The notes under the pieces: generated by a model
What the model was told of the DNA's origin: nothing
Seen by the model: only the letters and a program-made list of their open reading frames with translations
Database searches by the model: none
In this document: positions 13,258 through 23,996 of the stretch, in pieces
How positions within the stretch are numbered: the first letter of the stretch is position 1
Layout: each line of letters starts with the position of its first letter
Source: Dokdonella koreensis DS-123
Lineage (GTDB): Bacteria > Pseudomonadota > Gammaproteobacteria > Xanthomonadales > Rhodanobacteraceae
Assembly: GCF_001632775.1 (NCBI RefSeq)
Contig: NZ_CP015249.1
Span: forward strand, 2,894,686-2,958,685
Direction of reading: 5' to 3'
Length of the DNA stretch: 64,000 bases
Translations under genes and position numbers: made by a program

Positions 13258-13394
13258 GTTCATATCCTCGGACCGGAGGCGAGACACCCTACCCTGCGCC
13301 CGCGCCGCGTCGATGGCTCGACGCCGTGCCTGCGTACTACGGCTAGGAACTTCGCTTGTGTCTCGTCAACCGGCGCGCACTACGCCCCCACTGA

Positions 13395-13601
13395 CTAATC
13401 AAATGCCAAATAGATAATTGCAATACCAAGCACTACATTAAGTATTCGCATTAAATTTCGAGAAAGAAAAATCCTTAGCAGCGAATGCGTATAGAATAGA
13501 GCCATACTTCTCGGCGGGTCATTTATAATTTTTAGATTTAAAATTCCCCCAACGACAAGAAATATGCCGAACAAAAAGAAAATTATTCTTCCCGAACTCA
13601 T
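13395..13601 (-). CDS. Small membrane protein behind the RHS tip, candidate immunity protein
   Basis: Encodes 68 residues starting MSSGRIIFFLFGIFLVVGG. Two hydrophobic segments are visible: about residues 6-22 and a C-terminal one (ILNVVLGIAIIYLAF). They are separated by a basic loop (SLLRIFLSRNLMR). The ATG lies one base after the TGA of the RHS gene, so it is translationally coupled to the variable tip. Its DNA is very AT-rich: I count 85 G+C in the 240 bases 13,381-13,620, in a genome near two-thirds G+C. Position and composition match immunity genes of polymorphic toxins, and a membrane location would suit a toxin acting on the membrane or periplasm. I recognise no family. Longer starts up to 13637 overlap the RHS gene and are less likely. 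Confidence 0.65.
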   Translation of the reverse strand: MSSGRIIFFLFGIFLVVGGILNLKIINDPPRSMALFYTHSLLRIFLSRNLMRILNVVLGIAIIYLAFD

Positions 13602-13602
13602 C

Positions 13603-16600
13603 TCATTCAGAGAAATTAACTGGCATCCCAACACCAAAACCCAGATTCACGCAAATTTCCTCATCGTTCGCAGTGCTCACCCCAAGCCTCCTGCCAATAC
13701 CAAACGATGCTGTTTCGAATTTGCTGCCAAACAAGGTAATAACAGGGATACGCTCTCTGCAATTCTCTGGCTTGCAACAACGCACAAGCGTGAACCCTAC
13801 CTCCGGGAGAAGATTGCCATCACTACTCATCTCCCAAGTCGGATACTCCCAATTTATATTCCAAAACCATGTTGCCATGGAAACGAAAGTCCGACAGCCC
13901 CTATCTCTGTTGTCAGGAGGCGGAATTATAGGCACATCAGTCCTACAGTATTTTGTGCCGCACATCTGCTCTTTTCCATTGCTGTCAACAAAATTGACAG
14001 GAGATGCCTGCACATATGAATACGTACTACTACCCCCTTTTAGTCCAATAGAATCGCTCTCCACATACCGCCCCGTGCCCGGTTCGTAATCGCGGAAGTA
14101 GTTGTAATGTAGCCCGGTCTCGGCATCGTAGGCCTGCCCCGGGTAGCGCAGGTTCAGCGTCAGCGGATCGCTGGCCGGCAGCGTCGGCGCGTGCTCGCCG
14201 AAGGCGGTGCCGAAGAAATTCCACTGCCAGCGCCAGGCCTTACTGGCCGGATCGACCGCCAGCCGCGGCGTGCCCAGGTGATCGGTCTCCAGGTACACCA
14301 GCGCGCCGCCGGCATTGACCGCCACCGGCAGGTCATCCAGGTAGAGGTATTCCTGCAGCTGCGGCGCCGTACCGAGCCCGCCCAGGCTGTCCGTCAGGCT
14401 GTACAGCCGCCTGCCGGCCTCGTCGTAGGCCACGTCCTCGCGCGTGGCCGTCCGCAGCTTGGTGACCCGCTCGCCACGGCCGTTGTACTGGTAACCGATC
14501 GTCTCGCTGCCGACGGTCGCCGTCGCCAGCCGGTTGCGGTCGTCGTAGGTCATCGCCGCGAACGGCGCTCCGGTCAGGTTGCCGTTGGCGTCATGGGTGC
14601 GGCTGACGCCGCCGACGCTGGCGAGGTGGTGCGTGCTGGCGGTGTACGTGTACGCCTCGGTGGGGTTGGTCCCGACCGTCTTGCCGAGCCGGTCGCCGGT
14701 CGGGCCGTACGTGAACGCCTCGATCAGGTCGGCGTTGCCGTCGCGGACTTCCTTCAGCCGGTACAGCCGGTCGTAGCCGTAGGTGATCTTCGGCGTCGGG
14801 CTGCCGATGGCATCGGTACCGGCAATGATGTTGCCCATCACATCGACGGTCAGCTCCAGGTTGAGGCCACCGGTGACGCTGCTGGCGACGTGGTCGATCG
14901 CGTAGTCCTGGTCGTAGGTCTTGGTCAGCGTACGGCCGTTGCCGAAGGTCAGCACGTTCAACGGACCGAACGGGTAGTAGGTCGCATTGCTGACGACTAT
15001 CTGCGGCGTGGCACTGGCGTTGGCCTTCCAGGTCAGGCCGGTCACCTGCCCGATCGCATTGCGCGTGTAGCTGACGATGGCGCCGCTCGGGTAGGTCAGG
15101 CCGGCCAGCCGGTCGGCCTTCGTCCAGGTGTAGCTGACCGTCAGCGTGGTGGTGCTGGTGACCTGGGTCTTCTTCGTGATGTTGCCGCGGCGGTCGTAGC
15201 AGTAGGTGGCGCTACCGCTGGCGTCGGTGATCCGCGTCAGCCGCCCGGCCGGGTAGGAACCGCTGCAACCGGTGGTGCCGTCGGCCTGGTCGTAGGCGAA
15301 GCTCGTGTCCAGGCTGCTGGTGGGGTAGCTGATGCCGGTCAGGCGATTGAGGGCATCGTAGGTGTAGGTGGTCGTGATGCCGCGGGCGTCGGTCTGGGTA
15401 CGGCGATTGCCGGCGGCGTCATAGGTATAGGCGGTGCTGCCGGTGTCCGGGCTCGACAGGCCGGTCTGATTGTTGAGGCCGTCGTAGGTGTAGCTGGTCG
15501 TCAGGCCGTCCGGGTCGGTGACGCTGACCAGGTTATCGCGCGCGTCGTAGCCATAGCCGGTGGTGGTGTCGCGGGTGGCCGGATCGGGCCCCAGGTAGTC
15601 CTGGATCGTCTGCGTCAGCCGGTTCAGCGGGTCGTAGCTCTGCCGCGTCTCGACACCGAGCCCGTCCACGCTCTGGGTGGGGTTGCCGTTGAGGTCGTAG
15701 CCACCGACGGCCGGCCAGGTCTGGGTGGCCTGGCTCTGGGCGTTGAGTTGGGCGGTCAGCTGGCCGAGTTGGTCGTAGGTCCGCCGCAGCGTGCGCGTGA
15801 CCGCGCTCGCGCCGGTCCGCGTCTCCTCGATCCGCCGGTTACCGGCGCCGTCCAGGCAGTCCGCCGTACCGGCGCCGGCGGGGCAGTAGTCGAGCGTGTT
15901 GCCGAGGTTGTCGGTGACGCTGACCAACCGGTGGGCGGTGTCGTAGCCGTAGTCGAGGTAGCTGCCGTCCGGCTGGGTCACCCGGGTGACGTTGCCGACG
16001 GCGTCGTAGGCCAGCGTGGTGGTGGTGTCGTCGGCGGAGGGGAGCCCGCTGGCATTGGCGCGCACCGTGCGTGTCAGCAGCCAGCCGCGCGAGTGGTACG
16101 TGAAGTCGCTCAGCGTGCCGTTGGCGTCCTTAGCTCGCGTGATGCGGCCGTTCTTGTCGTAGCTGACGGTCTCGGCGACCTGGCCGAGCGCATTGGTGAC
16201 CTTCCATAGGTCGCCCTTGCGGTAGCTGCAGGCACCGGCGCTGGCGCAGGTCGGATCTTCGGTCTGCCGGTACGTATAGGTGGTCAGGTCGTCGAGGCCG
16301 CCCATGCCCGGATCGGCCGTGGCCCGCGGGCCGTTGACCGACAACAGCAATCCGACCAGCGGGCAGGTGCCGGCCGTGACGCCACCCGACTCGCAGTAGG
16401 TCATCACCGTGCGGCGCACCTTCGCGCCCGCCGGCGGCGCCGTGGTCGCGCTGCAGGTGTAGGCCATCGCCGCGGTATCGGCGGGGTCGAGCTCGCAGGC
16501 GGCCGTCACCTGGCCGCGGGCGTTGTAGGCCCATTGCGTGCGCGCCTGCAAAGCGCTGGCAGCGTCATAGGCGCGCTTCTCGGTCGGCACGTTCAGCGTG

Positions 16601-18375
16601 CTGTGCCAGTCGGTCTGCGTCGTGCGCTTGGCCGAGCCGGGGCCCGTCGCCGTGGCCGCCTCGATCCGCTGCGTCTCCAGGCCGCGTGTGTTGTAGCTGT
16701 AGTCGGTGACGGTACCGCCGTAGTCGGTCGCCTGGTCGCGGTTGCCGTTGGCGTCGTACGTCACGCTGGTGCTGGCGATCACCGACGAGCAGGTTGCGTT
16801 CGCGCAGCGGTCCTCGCCGGCGTCGCGCAGGATGCCGTTGACGGCAGCGAACTTCTTGCGCCGCGTCTGGCCCAGGGCATCGGTCGTGCGCGTCCACGAC
16901 GTCGCCGTCATGTAGTTACCCGAGAACACCAAGGTCAGCTTGTTGGCATTCGCGTTGCCGTGCCATTCCTCATAGGCGCGGCCGCTAGCGTCGTACTTGT
17001 ACGACGCGTAACGGTTGCCATTTTCGTCAACGATGCCGGTCAACCGCTCCCAATAGGAGTTGGAACCCGCAGCATAACCCGGCTCGTTGTACAAATACCC
17101 CCGGGTAGACGGACTAACTCCAGGGCGATCGACGAATGCCAAGCGCTTCCATTTATCGTAGCGGTACTCGGTGACTTCCCCATCCGGGCCAATCATCTGT
17201 GTAATAAGCGAGTGCGCGTCGTAGCGCAACTCCAATGCACGCCCGGTCCAGTCCTGGACCTTGATGAGTAGACCCGAAGCCGGCGCTACCGAAACCGGTG
17301 TCGAACCATCGCTGTAGGTCAAGGTCGTCACCAGCCCGGCCTTGGTCGTGATCGACTGCAGCCTGCCGGTATCGTCGTATAGCTCCACCGTGTCTGCGGC
17401 ATCGACATAGCGCCAACCGGTTGTGATACCGCCGCTGGTCAACTCGATCAAGGATTCGGACTTGTCGTTGCGACCCGCCCAGATACCGCCAACCCACTTG
17501 AAATGGCGGTAGTCGCCGTTCGGCTGAACGACGTAGGCTACTGATTCCTCCGAAGGAGAGGCCGCCAGTTGCACTACGACACTACGCTGCCATACGTGAC
17601 GCCAAACAGCACCAAAACCATCTCTTGGCAAATCTAAATGGGGAGCACTGTAGAACCCAACACTAGAATAATAGCGAGCAAACTCAAGCGATGAGCTGCT
17701 CGCAGCCATCAAATCAAACTCAATCTGTGTCTTTTGTCCGCCCGCGCACTGAATAGGATTGCCTACCGGGCAAGCCTCCGGCTTGTATCTAATACAGGAC
17801 TCGACCCCATTATAATAATGATGTGAATATCCAGATGAACAATAAACATAACGCACACAACTAGACTCGGCCCTACCAGGACGGAGCGCAGGAGTGCACA
17901 TTCCGCTACCCCAATTAAAAAATGCGTAGGTCACATCTTGCCGGAATCGCATATTGACATCCAGCCCCATATCCTGCGCACGGGGCAATATTTCTATGCG
18001 ATTACTCCGATAAGGGCCATAGCAAAGAACGGTGTCACCCACTGTGCCTGGCGGATATTTAACTGGCGCGTACGCATCGGCGAACGCCCATGCCTCGTCT
18101 ATGCTGCATGTCTTTATGACATCTCCGGGCCCAATACCTTGGCCGTTATCGTAATACCTGCAAGGTGCGCTGCTGACCAGCATATCCGGATAGTTGCTTC
18201 CACACTCCCAAGGAGTTGCTTCGGGCCCTCGACACTCGGCCGCCCCGCCATTTATGAAGCAATCTTGCGCATAGGCAAGTTGAGACCCATCCCAAAAGAA
18301 AGTTACAACAATCAATATCAGCGTCGCACGCACTCTTCCTAAGAATTCGCCCGCCGCCATTGAACAAATACTCAT
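13603..18375 (-). CDS. Secreted RHS/YD-repeat protein with variable C-terminal tip
   Basis: About 1590 residues. The start at MSICSMAAGEFLGRV is favoured by a G-run just before the ATG; 18360 is an alternative. A Sec signal peptide (RATLILIVVTFFW then SQLAYAQD) is followed by a Cys-rich N-terminal region, then a DUF6531-like entry segment (PIQCAGGQKTQIEFDL). Dozens of YD repeats follow (YDANGNRDQ, YDALNRLTGI, YDQLGQLTAQ). The RHS core runs to GLHYNYFRDYEPGTGRYVE. The last 120 or so residues, from about DSNGKEQMCGTKYC, are a tip rich in Cys (CCKPENC) and Trp. RHS cores form a shell around a C-terminal toxin, and by analogy this tip is the effector candidate. G+C falls sharply at the core/tip junction (near 14,060) and is also low in the N-terminal 250 codons. 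No PAAR, VgrG or T6SS gene is present, so the signal peptide implies Sec export. Confidence 0.9.
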   Translation of the reverse strand: MSICSMAAGEFLGRVRATLILIVVTFFWDGSQLAYAQDCFINGGAAECRGPEATPWECGSNYPDMLVSSAPCRYYDNGQGIGPGDVIKTCSIDEAWAFADAYAPVKYPPGTVGDTVLCYGPYRSNRIEILPRAQDMGLDVNMRFRQDVTYAFFNWGSGMCTPALRPGRAESSCVRYVYCSSGYSHHYYNGVESCIRYKPEACPVGNPIQCAGGQKTQIEFDLMAASSSSLEFARYYSSVGFYSAPHLDLPRDGFGAVWRHVWQRSVVVQLAASPSEESVAYVVQPNGDYRHFKWVGGIWAGRNDKSESLIELTSGGITTGWRYVDAADTVELYDDTGRLQSITTKAGLVTTLTYSDGSTPVSVAPASGLLIKVQDWTGRALELRYDAHSLITQMIGPDGEVTEYRYDKWKRLAFVDRPGVSPSTRGYLYNEPGYAAGSNSYWERLTGIVDENGNRYASYKYDASGRAYEEWHGNANANKLTLVFSGNYMTATSWTRTTDALGQTRRKKFAAVNGILRDAGEDRCANATCSSVIASTSVTYDANGNRDQATDYGGTVTDYSYNTRGLETQRIEAATATGPGSAKRTTQTDWHSTLNVPTEKRAYDAASALQARTQWAYNARGQVTAACELDPADTAAMAYTCSATTAPPAGAKVRRTVMTYCESGGVTAGTCPLVGLLLSVNGPRATADPGMGGLDDLTTYTYRQTEDPTCASAGACSYRKGDLWKVTNALGQVAETVSYDKNGRITRAKDANGTLSDFTYHSRGWLLTRTVRANASGLPSADDTTTTLAYDAVGNVTRVTQPDGSYLDYGYDTAHRLVSVTDNLGNTLDYCPAGAGTADCLDGAGNRRIEETRTGASAVTRTLRRTYDQLGQLTAQLNAQSQATQTWPAVGGYDLNGNPTQSVDGLGVETRQSYDPLNRLTQTIQDYLGPDPATRDTTTGYGYDARDNLVSVTDPDGLTTSYTYDGLNNQTGLSSPDTGSTAYTYDAAGNRRTQTDARGITTTYTYDALNRLTGISYPTSSLDTSFAYDQADGTTGCSGSYPAGRLTRITDASGSATYCYDRRGNITKKTQVTSTTTLTVSYTWTKADRLAGLTYPSGAIVSYTRNAIGQVTGLTWKANASATPQIVVSNATYYPFGPLNVLTFGNGRTLTKTYDQDYAIDHVASSVTGGLNLELTVDVMGNIIAGTDAIGSPTPKITYGYDRLYRLKEVRDGNADLIEAFTYGPTGDRLGKTVGTNPTEAYTYTASTHHLASVGGVSRTHDANGNLTGAPFAAMTYDDRNRLATATVGSETIGYQYNGRGERVTKLRTATREDVAYDEAGRRLYSLTDSLGGLGTAPQLQEYLYLDDLPVAVNAGGALVYLETDHLGTPRLAVDPASKAWRWQWNFFGTAFGEHAPTLPASDPLTLNLRYPGQAYDAETGLHYNYFRDYEPGTGRYVESDSIGLKGGSSTYSYVQASPVNFVDSNGKEQMCGTKYCRTDVPIIPPPDNRDRGCRTFVSMATWFWNINWEYPTWEMSSDGNLLPEVGFTLVRCCKPENCRERIPVITLFGSKFETASFGIGRRLGVSTANDEEICVNLGFGVGMPVNFSE

Positions 18376-18596
18376 TGCCCCCCCACACCGATTCAGAACA
18401 GAGCAAAAACTTGGATGAACTTGCCACAGCCCCCTCAAGAGAGCAACCGATAAGAAACTGGGTCACGCGGAAACAGGACGTCACCCCGTCAGACCAAAAA
18501 AAACCGCCTCCCCCAGCAAACGGAGCCACGCCCTCTTGAAATCGAGCGCTACAACCTGTTTATGCTTCACATCCCCAGAACGACGATCTCTCGCTC

Positions 18597-19806: not shown

Positions 19807-20277
19807 ATGAACTTCAAGAAGACCCAGGGCTTCACGCTGATCGAACTGATGATCGTCGTTGCGATCATCGCCATCCTGGCGGCCATCGCCATCCCGCAGT
19901 ACCAGAACTACGTCATCCGTTCGCAGGTTTCGCGCGTGATGTCGGAATCTGGCCAGCTTCGTACGGCCATCGAGACCTGCATCAACGAAGGCCGGACCGC
20001 GATCGGCAACGCTGCCGGCGAGTGTGATCCGGGTGCGACTGGATCGAACCTTCTCACTGGCGGCAATGCCGCTCCCGGCGTGACCGTTCCTGCCACTGCC
20101 GGCACCGCGCAGATCACCGATCCGCTTACGGATGCCAGCACGATCGTTTCGACCTTTGGCAACAATGCCAATATCTCGATCGCCGGCGATGACCTGACCT
20201 GGACCCGTGATGCTTCGGGTGCGTGGGCCTGCAGCACCGGTGTCGATCCGAAGTGGGCGCCGACCGGTTGCCAGTAA
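19807..20277 (+). CDS. pilA: Type IV major pilin
   Basis: Encodes 156 residues. The 7-residue leader MNFKKTQ then [17 protein letters not shown] gives the prepilin cleavage site after Gly, the methylated Phe and the conserved Glu at +5. A globular domain follows, with a C-terminal disulphide pair (ACSTGVDPKWAPTGC), plus a second Cys pair (TCINEG and GECD). It is processed by the PilD encoded at 23996 and polymerised by PilB/PilC. A strong ribosome site (AGAGGAAA) precedes the ATG. It has a sigma-54-type promoter upstream and a strong terminator after it, so it can be expressed at high level independently of the following pilin gene. Confidence 0.97.
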   Translation: MNFKKTQGFTLIELMIVVAIIAILAAIAIPQYQNYVIRSQVSRVMSESGQLRTAIETCINEGRTAIGNAAGECDPGATGSNLLTGGNAAPGVTVPATAGTAQITDPLTDASTIVSTFGNNANISIAGDDLTWTRDASGAWACSTGVDPKWAPTGCQ

Positions 20278-20329
20278 AACTCGCAGAACAAGCTAACCTG
20301 CTGATTTGATTGGCAGGCCAGGCTTCCAG

Positions 20330-20358
20330 AAGGCCCCCGAATACGGGGGCCTTCTTTA
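20330..20358 (+). terminator. Intrinsic terminator after pilA
   Basis: A 10-bp perfect stem (AAGGCCCCCG and CGGGGGCCTT) with loop AATA is followed by a T-rich run (CTTTATTTT). It lies 52 bases after the pilA stop. Confidence 0.9.
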
Positions 20359-20407
20359 TTTTCCTTACTGGCATGAAATCTGCTGCGCCACGCCAAAGGG
20401 GGAATAA

Positions 20408-20797
20408 ATGAGCACTCGAGGATTTACGCTCATCGAGCTGATGATTGTTGTCGCGATTCTTGCAATCCTCGCGACAATTGCCATTCCAGCGTATCAAGGC
20501 TATGTCGCGCGCTCAGTTGCGGTGTCTGGGCTTGCCGAGATAGCGCCAGGAAAGGCCGGGTTTGAAGCCAAGATCAACGACGGAATCACATCCTTCACGC
20601 TTGGCGACATCGGTCTCGCTGCGACGACCGATCGATGCGACATCTCCTTGAATGTCGCCACCGGCACGATCACCTGCCTATTGAAAGGCAATCCACTGCT
20701 TGGCGGCACAACGCTCATTCTGACCCGGGCGAGCGGGGGCGATTGGAGCTGCTCTTCCACGGTACCGGCACCGTACAAACCTAGCGGCTGTTCGTGA
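20408..20797 (+). CDS. Second type IV pilin (short)
   Basis: Encodes 129 residues with a short leader MSTR then [17 protein letters not shown], including Glu at +5. The globular part is smaller than that of PilA and has Cys pairs DRCDISL/ITCLLK and [11 protein letters not shown]. The N-terminal helix is nearly identical to PilA's, but the rest is not, so this is a diverged paralogue, possibly a minor or alternative subunit. It sits behind the pilA terminator with its own ribosome site (GGGGG, 5 bases before ATG). Codon use is a little less GC-rich than in pilB. Confidence 0.93.
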
Positions 20798-20972
20798 GCC
20801 CGAGGCGCACTGCTTCCTCAGGCGCACTCCATAGCGCTCCGCGAAGCCGGGCCCTTGCCGCACGCTCCTCGCCTTGTGGATGACGTGACGATTTTTGTGA
20901 TGCACATGGTTCTACGTGACCCCGGTTTGCGGTAGATTCAGCCGATCCGACAGGGGCTTGCGTGACCTTCTT

Positions 20973-22700
20973 ATGGCTGTACCGATGAATACGGCGGCGC
21001 TGGCGGGCCTGAGCGGCATCGCCCGGCGTTTGGTGGCCGACGGCATCCTCGGCGAGAACGAAGCGCGCAAGGCCGCCGACGAAGCGGCCCGCCAGCGCAT
21101 CCCGATCGGCCCCTGGCTGATCGAGCACGGCCTGGTCGGTAGCGGCCTGGTGGCCCAGGCGACCTCGGCTGAGTTTGGTATCCCCTTGATCGACCTTGCC
21201 GGCATCGACGTCACCCAGGTGCCGATCAAGCTGGTCAAGGAGGAACTGGTCACCAAGCACCGCGCCCTGCCGTTGTTCAAGCGCGGCAACCGATTGTTCC
21301 TTGGTGTGTCGGACCCGACCAACCTGCGTGCGCTGGACGAGATCAAGTTCCAGTCCAACCACAGTGTGGAGCCGATCCTGGTGGACGATGCCCTGTTGGA
21401 CCGGGCGATCGACCAGGCACTGACGGCCACCAACGCGACGCTGGAATCCCTGGGCGACGACGAGGGTCTGGAGAACCTGGACCTCGGCGGTGTCGATGGA
21501 GACGAGGCCGAAACCGGCGTCGACGCCAACTCCACCGAGGACGCCCCGGTGGTGCGCTTCATCAACAAGGTGCTGGTCGACGCGATCAAGCGCGGCGCCT
21601 CGGACATCCACTTCGAGCCCTACGAGACCGCCTACCGCGTGCGCCTGCGCATGGATGGCATGTTGCGGGCGGTCGCCTCGCCACCCGTCAAGCTCAACTC
21701 ACGCATCGCCTCGCGCCTGAAGGTCATGAGCGGCCTGGACATCGCCGAGAAACGGGTGCCGCAGGACGGGCGCATCAAGCTCAACCTGTCCAAGACCAAG
21801 TCGATCGACTTCCGCGTCAGCACCTGCCCCACGCTGTTCGGCGAGAAGATCGTGCTGCGTATTTTGGATGCCGCGGCGGCCAAGCTCGGCATCGACAAGC
21901 TGGGCTACGAGGAAGACCAGAAGAAGCTGTTCCTGGAAGCGATCGAGAAGCCCTACGGCATGGTGCTGGTCACCGGCCCGACCGGCTCGGGCAAAACGGT
22001 ATCGCTCTATACGGCGCTCAACATCCTCAACGTGGAGGGGCGCAACATCTCCACGGTGGAGGACCCGGTCGAAATCCGTGTGCCGGGCATCAACCAGGTG
22101 CAGCAGAACGCCAAGCGCGGCATGACGTTCGCCGCAGCGCTGCGCAGCTTCCTGCGCCAGGACCCGGACGTGATCATGGTCGGCGAGATCCGCGACCTGG
22201 AAACCGCCGAGATTGCGATCAAGGCCGCGCAGACCGGCCATATGGTGCTCTCGACCCTGCACACCAATGACGGTCCGCAAACGATCTCGCGCCTGATGAA
22301 CATGGGCATTGCGCCCTACAACATCACCAGTTCCGTGACGCTGGTGATCGCCCAGCGGCTGGCGCGGCGCCTGCACGACTGCAAGCGGCCAGCCAACATC
22401 CCTGCACCCGCCCTGCTGGCCGAAGGCTTTACCCAGGCCGAGATCGACGCAGGACTGGACATCTTTGAAGCGGTCGGCTGCAACGGCTGTAACGAGGGCT
22501 ACAAGGGCCGCCTGGGCATCTACCAGGTGATGCCGATGAGCGAGGACATCCAGAAGATCGTTCTCGCCGGTGGCAACGCCATACAGATTGCCACCGAGGC
22601 CAAGCGCATCGGCATCAACGACCTGCGTGCCTCGGCCTTGCTCAAGGTCAAGAACGGGCATACCAGCCTCGCCGAAATCAATCGCGTCACGAAGGACTAA
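20973..22700 (+). CDS. pilB: Type IV pilus extension ATPase PilB
   Basis: About 575 residues from MAVPMNTAALAGL; 20985 is an alternative start. The N-terminal MshEN-like domain is followed by the secretion ATPase. This has Walker A GPTGSGKT near residue 335, Walker B region DPDVIMVGEIRDLETAEIA, and the His box TGHMVLSTLHTND. A CNGCNEGYKGR stretch belongs to the zinc-binding motif. PilB powers pilus extension from the cytoplasmic face of the inner membrane. The gene is 4 bases upstream of pilC. No pilT is in the window. Confidence 0.97.
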   Translation: MAVPMNTAALAGLSGIARRLVADGILGENEARKAADEAARQRIPIGPWLIEHGLVGSGLVAQATSAEFGIPLIDLAGIDVTQVPIKLVKEELVTKHRALPLFKRGNRLFLGVSDPTNLRALDEIKFQSNHSVEPILVDDALLDRAIDQALTATNATLESLGDDEGLENLDLGGVDGDEAETGVDANSTEDAPVVRFINKVLVDAIKRGASDIHFEPYETAYRVRLRMDGMLRAVASPPVKLNSRIASRLKVMSGLDIAEKRVPQDGRIKLNLSKTKSIDFRVSTCPTLFGEKIVLRILDAAAAKLGIDKLGYEEDQKKLFLEAIEKPYGMVLVTGPTGSGKTVSLYTALNILNVEGRNISTVEDPVEIRVPGINQVQQNAKRGMTFAAALRSFLRQDPDVIMVGEIRDLETAEIAIKAAQTGHMVLSTLHTNDGPQTISRLMNMGIAPYNITSSVTLVIAQRLARRLHDCKRPANIPAPALLAEGFTQAEIDAGLDIFEAVGCNGCNEGYKGRLGIYQVMPMSEDIQKIVLAGGNAIQIATEAKRIGINDLRASALLKVKNGHTSLAEINRVTKD

Positions 22701-22703
22701 GCC

Positions 22704-23996
22704 ATGGCAACCGTCACCGCACTCCGAGCGAAACAGGCCAAGGCCCAGGCCGACGCCCGATCAAAAGTGGCCCGGGAGCGCGCAAAGGTCAGTGAGCTGC
22801 AGACCTTTGTCTGGGTCGGCTTGGACAAGCGCGGCACCAAGATCAAGGGCGAGACCAGCAGCAAGAACGCCAGCTTGGTCAAGGCGGACTTGCGCAAGCA
22901 AGGCATCAACCCGCAAACCGTCAAGCCGAAGCCAAAACCCTTGTTCGGCAAAAGTGGCAGCTCGATCAAATCTCGCGAAATCGCCATTTTCGCGCGCCAG
23001 CTGGCGACGATGATGGCGGCCGGCGTGCCGATGGTGCAAGGCTTCGAGATCGTCGCTGGCGGCCAGAAAAATCAGCGCATGAAGGACATGCTGACCAACA
23101 TCAAGACGGACATCGAGGGCGGGTCGGCGCTGAACGAGGCGCTTGGGAAGTATCCCGTGCAGTTCGACGAACTGTTCCGCAACCTCGTTCGTGCCGGCGA
23201 GGCCTCCGGCGTGCTCGATACGATTCTCGACACGGTCGCAACGTACAAAGAAAACATCGAGAGTATCAAGGGGAAAATTAAGAAGGCAATGTTCTATCCG
23301 GCTGCTGTTATCGCAGTTGCCATCATCGTCTCTTGCGTCCTCTTGATCTTTGTTATTCCCCAGTTCGAAGCCGTATTCAAAGGATTTGGAACCGACCTCC
23401 CAGCTTTTACGTTGATGCTGGTAGCGGCGTCTGATTTCCTTGTCGAATGGTGGTGGGCTTTACTGCTTGTCCTTGTCGGCGCGATTACTGCTTTTGTCTT
23501 TACGATAAAACGATCGACAAAATTCGAACATCTTGTCGGGCGGCTCATGTTGAAGATTCCAGTCGTGGGAGAAATCCTGCGGCAATCCGCCATAGCCCGC
23601 TACGCACGTACGCTCGGCGTCACGTTCAAGGCGGGTGTTCCTCTGGTGGAGGCTCTCGATTCCGTGTCCGGCGCCACCGGCAGCCCGGTCTACAACGAGG
23701 CGGTCAAGCGCATCCGCGATGACGTCTCGGTCGGCCATCAGCTGCAACTGGCAATGAAGCAGACGGACCTCTTTCCCAACATGGTCACGCAGATGGTCGC
23801 GATCGGCGAAGAAGCCGGCGCGCTCGACGCGATGCTGTTCAAGGTGGCCGAGTTCTACGAAGAAGAGGTCAAGAACGCCGTCGATGCGCTGTCCAGCCTG
23901 CTGGAACCGTTCATCATGGTGATCATCGGCGTGGTGGTCGGTGGCATGGTCATCGGCATGTACCTGCCGATCTTCAAGCTCGCGTCTGTCGTTTGA
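22704..23996 (+). CDS. pilC: Type IV pilus inner-membrane platform protein PilC
   Basis: Encodes 430 residues. A basic N-terminus and a WVGLDKRGTKIKGE segment precede two GspF/PilC domains, with motifs FARQLATMMAAGVPMVQGFE and RYARTLGVTFKAGVPLVEALD. Membrane helices are at FYPAAVIAVAIIVSCVLLIFV, the WWWALLLVLVGAITAFVF region, and the C-terminal IMVIIGVVVGGMVIGMYLP. It is the platform that couples PilB to pilin assembly. Oddly, bases 23,221-23,580 are only about 47% G+C by hand count (171 of 360) while flanking lines are 60% or more, so this middle block may have been exchanged by recombination. Confidence 0.97.
   Translation: MATVTALRAKQAKAQADARSKVARERAKVSELQTFVWVGLDKRGTKIKGETSSKNASLVKADLRKQGINPQTVKPKPKPLFGKSGSSIKSREIAIFARQLATMMAAGVPMVQGFEIVAGGQKNQRMKDMLTNIKTDIEGGSALNEALGKYPVQFDELFRNLVRAGEASGVLDTILDTVATYKENIESIKGKIKKAMFYPAAVIAVAIIVSCVLLIFVIPQFEAVFKGFGTDLPAFTLMLVAASDFLVEWWWALLLVLVGAITAFVFTIKRSTKFEHLVGRLMLKIPVVGEILRQSAIARYARTLGVTFKAGVPLVEALDSVSGATGSPVYNEAVKRIRDDVSVGHQLQLAMKQTDLFPNMVTQMVAIGEEAGALDAMLFKVAEFYEEEVKNAVDALSSLLEPFIMVIIGVVVGGMVIGMYLPIFKLASVV

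Follow-up and report, generated by a model that had tools for sequence, protein, structure and literature searches.

We found that the window (the whole stretch of 64,000 nucleotides analyzed here) carries on its reverse strand an Rhs/YD-repeat gene that ends in an orphan C-terminal tip and is directly followed by a gene for a tiny predicted membrane protein. Very probably, the two genes encode a polymorphic Rhs toxin and the protein that confers immunity to it, toxicity and protection both being predicted from sequence and layout. By its architecture, the locus would be a known kind of bacterial weapon, the Rhs polymorphic toxin system, and what appears new is only this sequence-orphan pair. 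The locus is made up of the following features.

13603..18438, minus strand: Rhs/YD-repeat polymorphic toxin gene, 1611 aa as an open reading frame (profile matches)
18375 (residue 22), minus strand: likely Rhs start ATG (an inferred choice of start)
18265..18375, minus strand: likely Sec signal peptide, residues 22-58, ...LILIVVTFFWDGSQLAYAQ (read from the translation)
17764..18264, minus strand: variable, Cys-rich, low-GC N-terminal region, residues 59-225 (unaligned in most relatives)
17569..17763, minus strand: DUF6531, the N-terminal plug of Rhs shells, residues 226-290 (just under the Pfam cut-off)
13975..17568, minus strand: YD-repeat shell and Rhs-associated core, residues 291-1488 (Pfam, NCBIfam, PDB, family alignments)
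13975..14055, minus strand: aspartyl self-cleavage motif DSIG-X19-DSNG, D1462 and D1485 (sequence, compared with Tse5)
13606..13974, minus strand: orphan C-terminal tip (Rhs-CT), 123 aa, predicted toxin (sequence, searches)
13395..13601, minus strand: small open reading frame, 68 aa, predicted two-helix membrane protein and predicted cognate immunity protein
13392..14068, no strand: low-GC block of the tip, the small gene and the final ~30 core residues (GC change-points, end of the DNA match)

The initial annotation of this DNA had reported that G+C falls to about 50% in the tip and about 35% in the next gene, and that the small-gene ATG lies one base past the RHS stop, a layout it read as a toxin and its immunity gene imported together. 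Our measurements agree with the description: G+C is 0.68-0.71 on both flanks and falls to 0.48 across the tip and to 0.338 across the small gene, whose ATG at 13601 is indeed one base past the Rhs TGA. A three-segment change-point fit placed the borders at 13390 and 14068, and a four-segment fit placed them at 13392, 13620 and 14112. The left border coincides with the small-gene stop codon (13395), and on the other side the low-GC block reaches ~30 residues into the Rhs core, so that it takes in the self-cleavage motif. Because the change-points fall at 13392 and ~14068, the tip and the small gene, together with ~30 residues at the core end, are likely one imported block. The closest same-genus copy (G003) is 78.5% identical in DNA to the Rhs gene up to base 14042, past which it has a different, very short end and a different gene; the homology break and the GC break thus agree within ~30-70 bases. 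The idea of a joint import is supported by these breaks, and the tip, immunity gene and core end probably arrived together through recombination inside the conserved core end. A search for a promoter or terminator between the tip and the small gene found nothing informative, and the desaturase neighbour of the locus is absent from sister genomes. Type IV pilus genes adjoin the Rhs gene at 19807-23996 of the window, including a pilin (19807-20277) and a PilC-like T2SSF protein (22704-23996).

The vehicle itself matches known Rhs shells. The open reading frame matched RHS_repeat (E 4e-68), Rhs_assc_core (E 1.4e-21) and DUF6531 (E 1.6e-4) in Pfam and NCBIfam, and several comparisons place the end of the conserved part at nearly the same residue: the Rhs-associated core match finishes at residue 1488, full-length family alignments stop at residue 1485-1488, and matches to shells in the PDB (Tse5, Rhs1/Tre23, RhsA, Tse15) end at query residues 1486-1489. 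Tse5 (PDB 8cp6) stops at query residue 1487; the listed chain has 1121 residues and the match ends at 1119, so it is the shell part that is compared, and the tip matched no PDB chain. At the other end of the protein, most family matches begin near residue 215-226, and the N-terminal stretch of the gene, ~17.5-18.6 kb, is likewise low in G+C. Within it, the segment 17764-18375 is Cys-rich, has a G+C of 0.48-0.53 and is unaligned in most relatives; it looks as though the end that serves export or targeting could be exchanged as well. Delivery of the Rhs protein by a type VI secretion system (T6SS) seems unlikely, because a likely Sec signal peptide precedes the shell and TssB/VipA (PF05591), a sheath gene and the sole T6SS marker sought, is absent from the 4.45-Mb single-contig genome. 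With its complete sequence and four Rhs loci, the genome would offer a test case for how Sec-exported Rhs toxins get to their target cells in the absence of a T6SS.

The conserved core ends in a putative self-cleavage site. In Tse5, the tip is released by an aspartyl motif, DPXG-X19-DPXG, and is cut after the Leu following the second motif (PMC10684867). The window Rhs keeps the two Asp with Tse5-like spacing, both prolines are replaced by Ser, and the cut is predicted after K1489. Among 81 aligned cores, the window core included, the second Asp is invariant (81/81), the motif Gly is present in 80/81 and Leu occupies P1 in 70/81, where the window core has Lys. Given the constancy of the Asp and the Gly, self-cleavage is likely to be retained, with non-standard neighbours around the predicted site; the two Pro-to-Ser replacements and the Lys at P1 suggest that it may be weaker than standard.

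The shell is widespread, and the window tip is not shared by the relatives that we read. This Rhs shell was detected at E <= 1e-40 in 115 of the 234 family genomes, and we read the core end and downstream DNA in 80 relatives. None of the 80 bears the window tip, and the sequence past the same motif differs from the window tip in each. The initial annotation had held that conservation of the pair along with the core in all relatives would speak against its reading; the relatives keep the core and carry other tips. The tips on this core have a median length of 148 aa and fall into 59 single-linkage clusters, the window tip included. When 79 of the relatives' tips were scanned, few matched Pfam (12 families, one or two members each) and none matched NCBIfam; the Pfam toxin matches include Ntox10 (E 1e-44), Ntox33, DUF4329, TseH-like, Tlde1 and Peptidase_M91. 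Genes behind tips on this core include members of the known immunity families CdiI_3 (E 2e-25) and Imm27 (E 3e-17), as well as of DUF4279 and Sel1. Coupling of the two genes is the rule: an ATG-initiated open reading frame of at least 50 aa lies near the tip stop in 70/76 relatives, compared with 18% of shuffled controls, and the downstream frame starts at -4..+5 of the tip stop in 42% of relatives, compared with 1.6% of shuffled controls. The locus adds one orphan toxin and immunity candidate; of more use, the Rhs cores across the family prove to be a rich store of undescribed tips.

The window tip is itself an orphan. Of its 123 residues, 7 are Cys and 4 are Trp, the Cys- and Trp-rich composition with CCKPENC that had been described earlier, and it lacks a strongly hydrophobic helix. 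Its single-sequence model is poor (pLDDT 39.5), with a beta-rich look at low confidence, and is too poor for a fold search. We found no significant relative of the tip in Pfam, NCBIfam, PADLOC, the PDB, plasmids, phages, viral contigs or genome contigs (a patterned search), nor in 233 other family, 368 class and 398 order genomes (overlapping samples). Weak whole-genome matches were rejected: three (L012, L013, L049) fall within unrelated non-Rhs genes or on the strand opposite to them and are due to chance, and two (L051, L052; E ~0.003) are frames with stops that we took as chance.

One weak match, an own-genome match that extends beyond the core, falls in another Rhs tip of the same genome (C1:4402145-4402570; L007, L134; phmmer E 0.008, 28% over 57 residues). 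This tip belongs to an apparently unnamed, Gly-rich family of Rhodanobacteraceae without a Pfam match (L134-L144, L146, L147), found at the search threshold in 12 of the 234 family genomes, of which the match in G130 looks spurious. Each Gly-rich tip is followed by a small membrane-anchored protein, mostly with one N-terminal transmembrane (TM) segment and an exported domain bearing a conserved FCK-like motif, or else by a 51-aa single-TM protein. The window tip shares with these tips the vehicle, the host family and a Gly-rich C-terminus, and the match at E 0.008 is its best weak match among relatives, as would be expected of a divergent member. However, it scored only 3.0 bits against the 11-member family profile, a value like those of its own shuffles and of unrelated tips. 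We therefore rejected its assignment to the Gly-rich family, and consider membership very improbable.

The product of the small gene has hydrophobic segments at residues 6-24 and 49-67, and its AlphaFold2 model consists of two helices (mean pLDDT 87), in line with the two TM segments initially attributed to it. Most of its positive charges lie in the loop between the helices, so that probably short tails alone would face the periplasm. The protein had no significant relative in Pfam, NCBIfam, PADLOC, the PDB, plasmids, phages, viral contigs, genome contigs or the sampled family, class and order genomes, and a fold search with its model returned no match. Its closest likeness is to Imm17 (PF15562), also a small protein with two TM helices and an Arg between them: the alignment covers the full length at 14.7 bits (E 0.029), below the curated cut-off of 25 bits. 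Shuffles of the small protein that preserve its TM segments match other Pfam families at E 0.012-0.06, and while the Arg between the helices is present, the WxW signature given for Imm17 by Zhang et al. (PMC3482391) is absent. We thus rejected membership in Imm17; since the shuffles score alike and WxW is missing, the protein is Imm17-like in shape only.

The missing homologue, and a likeness to Imm17 no better than that of shuffled TM sequences to other families, would also fit a different explanation, namely that the 68-aa frame is a chance or relic open reading frame, and that the tip lacks protection, has decayed or is countered by the product of a different gene. We consider this improbable. 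When the body of the small gene was shuffled with dinucleotide frequencies preserved, the frame stayed open for 67 codons in only 0.9% of trials; the start lies one base past the Rhs stop, the product has two helices and the GC border falls on its stop codon. Moreover, relatives as a rule have a downstream gene at close spacing. A dedicated immunity gene thus remains our preferred reading of the small frame, although the absence of any homologue that could attest to a common history or point out an active site counts against the toxin-immunity interpretation of the pair.

The best functional precedent for the pair, by analogy, is Tse5/Tsi5 of Pseudomonas aeruginosa. There, the tip of Tse5/RhsP1 forms pores and depolarises membranes (PMC9637101), and it is neutralised by Tsi5/RhsI1, a 76-aa protein with two predicted TM helices encoded by an overlapping open reading frame (PMC9637101, PMC4067218). 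Both systems have an Rhs shell with DUF6531, an aspartyl DxxG-X19-DxxG motif and a short C-terminal tip (PMC9637101, PMC4067218, PMC10684867), and Tsi5 and the 68-aa protein are both tiny and encoded at the 3' end of the toxin gene. The window Rhs differs from Tse5 in its likely Sec signal peptide and in a genome without TssB, and its tip, with a beta-rich look in a low-confidence model, differs from Tse5-CT, which is predicted to be helical and hydrophobic. In its likely export, the locus resembles the Sec-exported (T2SS-type) Rhs toxins, for which a signal peptide, Rhs repeats, a variable C-terminal toxin and an adjacent immunity gene have been described (Zhang et al. 2012, PMC3482391). The same four-part layout is predicted here, with a tip that has no match among the Pfam and NCBIfam toxin families.

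From these comparisons, we infer a sequence of export, cleavage, intoxication and protection. The YD-repeat shell would be exported, probably through the Sec pathway and a type II or comparable system, while enclosing its final ~122 residues, which it would cut free by its own aspartyl motif. The released tip would be a toxin against related bacteria. The 68-aa protein would sit in the inner membrane of the producer and block the tip there, which makes the inner membrane the most likely site of action; on the analogy with Tse5/Tsi5, we hold this target with about even confidence. There, the tip might act in or on the membrane, for instance as a pore or depolarising agent. Two observations count against a pore, namely that the low-quality tip model (pLDDT 39.5) gives no fold support and that no strongly hydrophobic helix is present.

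As the main alternative, the two genes could form a toxin-immunity pair in which the tip is a periplasmic enzyme, acting for example on the cell wall or lipids, and the small membrane protein binds or displaces it at the membrane surface. With its 7 Cys, the tip would suit an oxidising environment outside the cytoplasm, Tlde1 and alpha/beta-hydrolase tips occur on this core in relatives, and 31 of the 77 downstream proteins of relatives have a TM or signal-like segment. Yet the single orphan sequence shows no recognisable catalytic motif, and hardly any of the small protein would be exposed on the periplasmic side, so that we regard such an enzyme as rather unlikely. Under the inner-membrane reading, the tip might found a class of Cys-rich, mostly beta-structured Rhs toxins that are Sec-exported, T6SS-independent and paired with a two-helix immunity protein unrelated to Tsi5 or Imm17, a proposal we put forward tentatively and with some doubt. 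As for the initial suggestion of an undescribed toxin-immunity pair fitting no known family, it holds at the level of sequence, the homologue searches having returned nothing significant, whereas Tse5/Tsi5 already provides an example of the layout, two-helix immunity protein included.

A recurrent Rhs tip family (L085, L116, L122, L125, L127; NLFP... GAHGNP... SCNTG) is accompanied by Sel1-repeat downstream proteins, several of them with signal-like N-termini, and its His/Cys pattern is reminiscent of the cysteine peptidases of self-processing toxins. Finally, two Rhs genes of the same genome, at approximately C1:296,000-299,500 (L008) and C1:365,000-370,000 (L009), have tips with the motifs HEYYH and HEGQH, respectively, which are suggestive of metallopeptidases.
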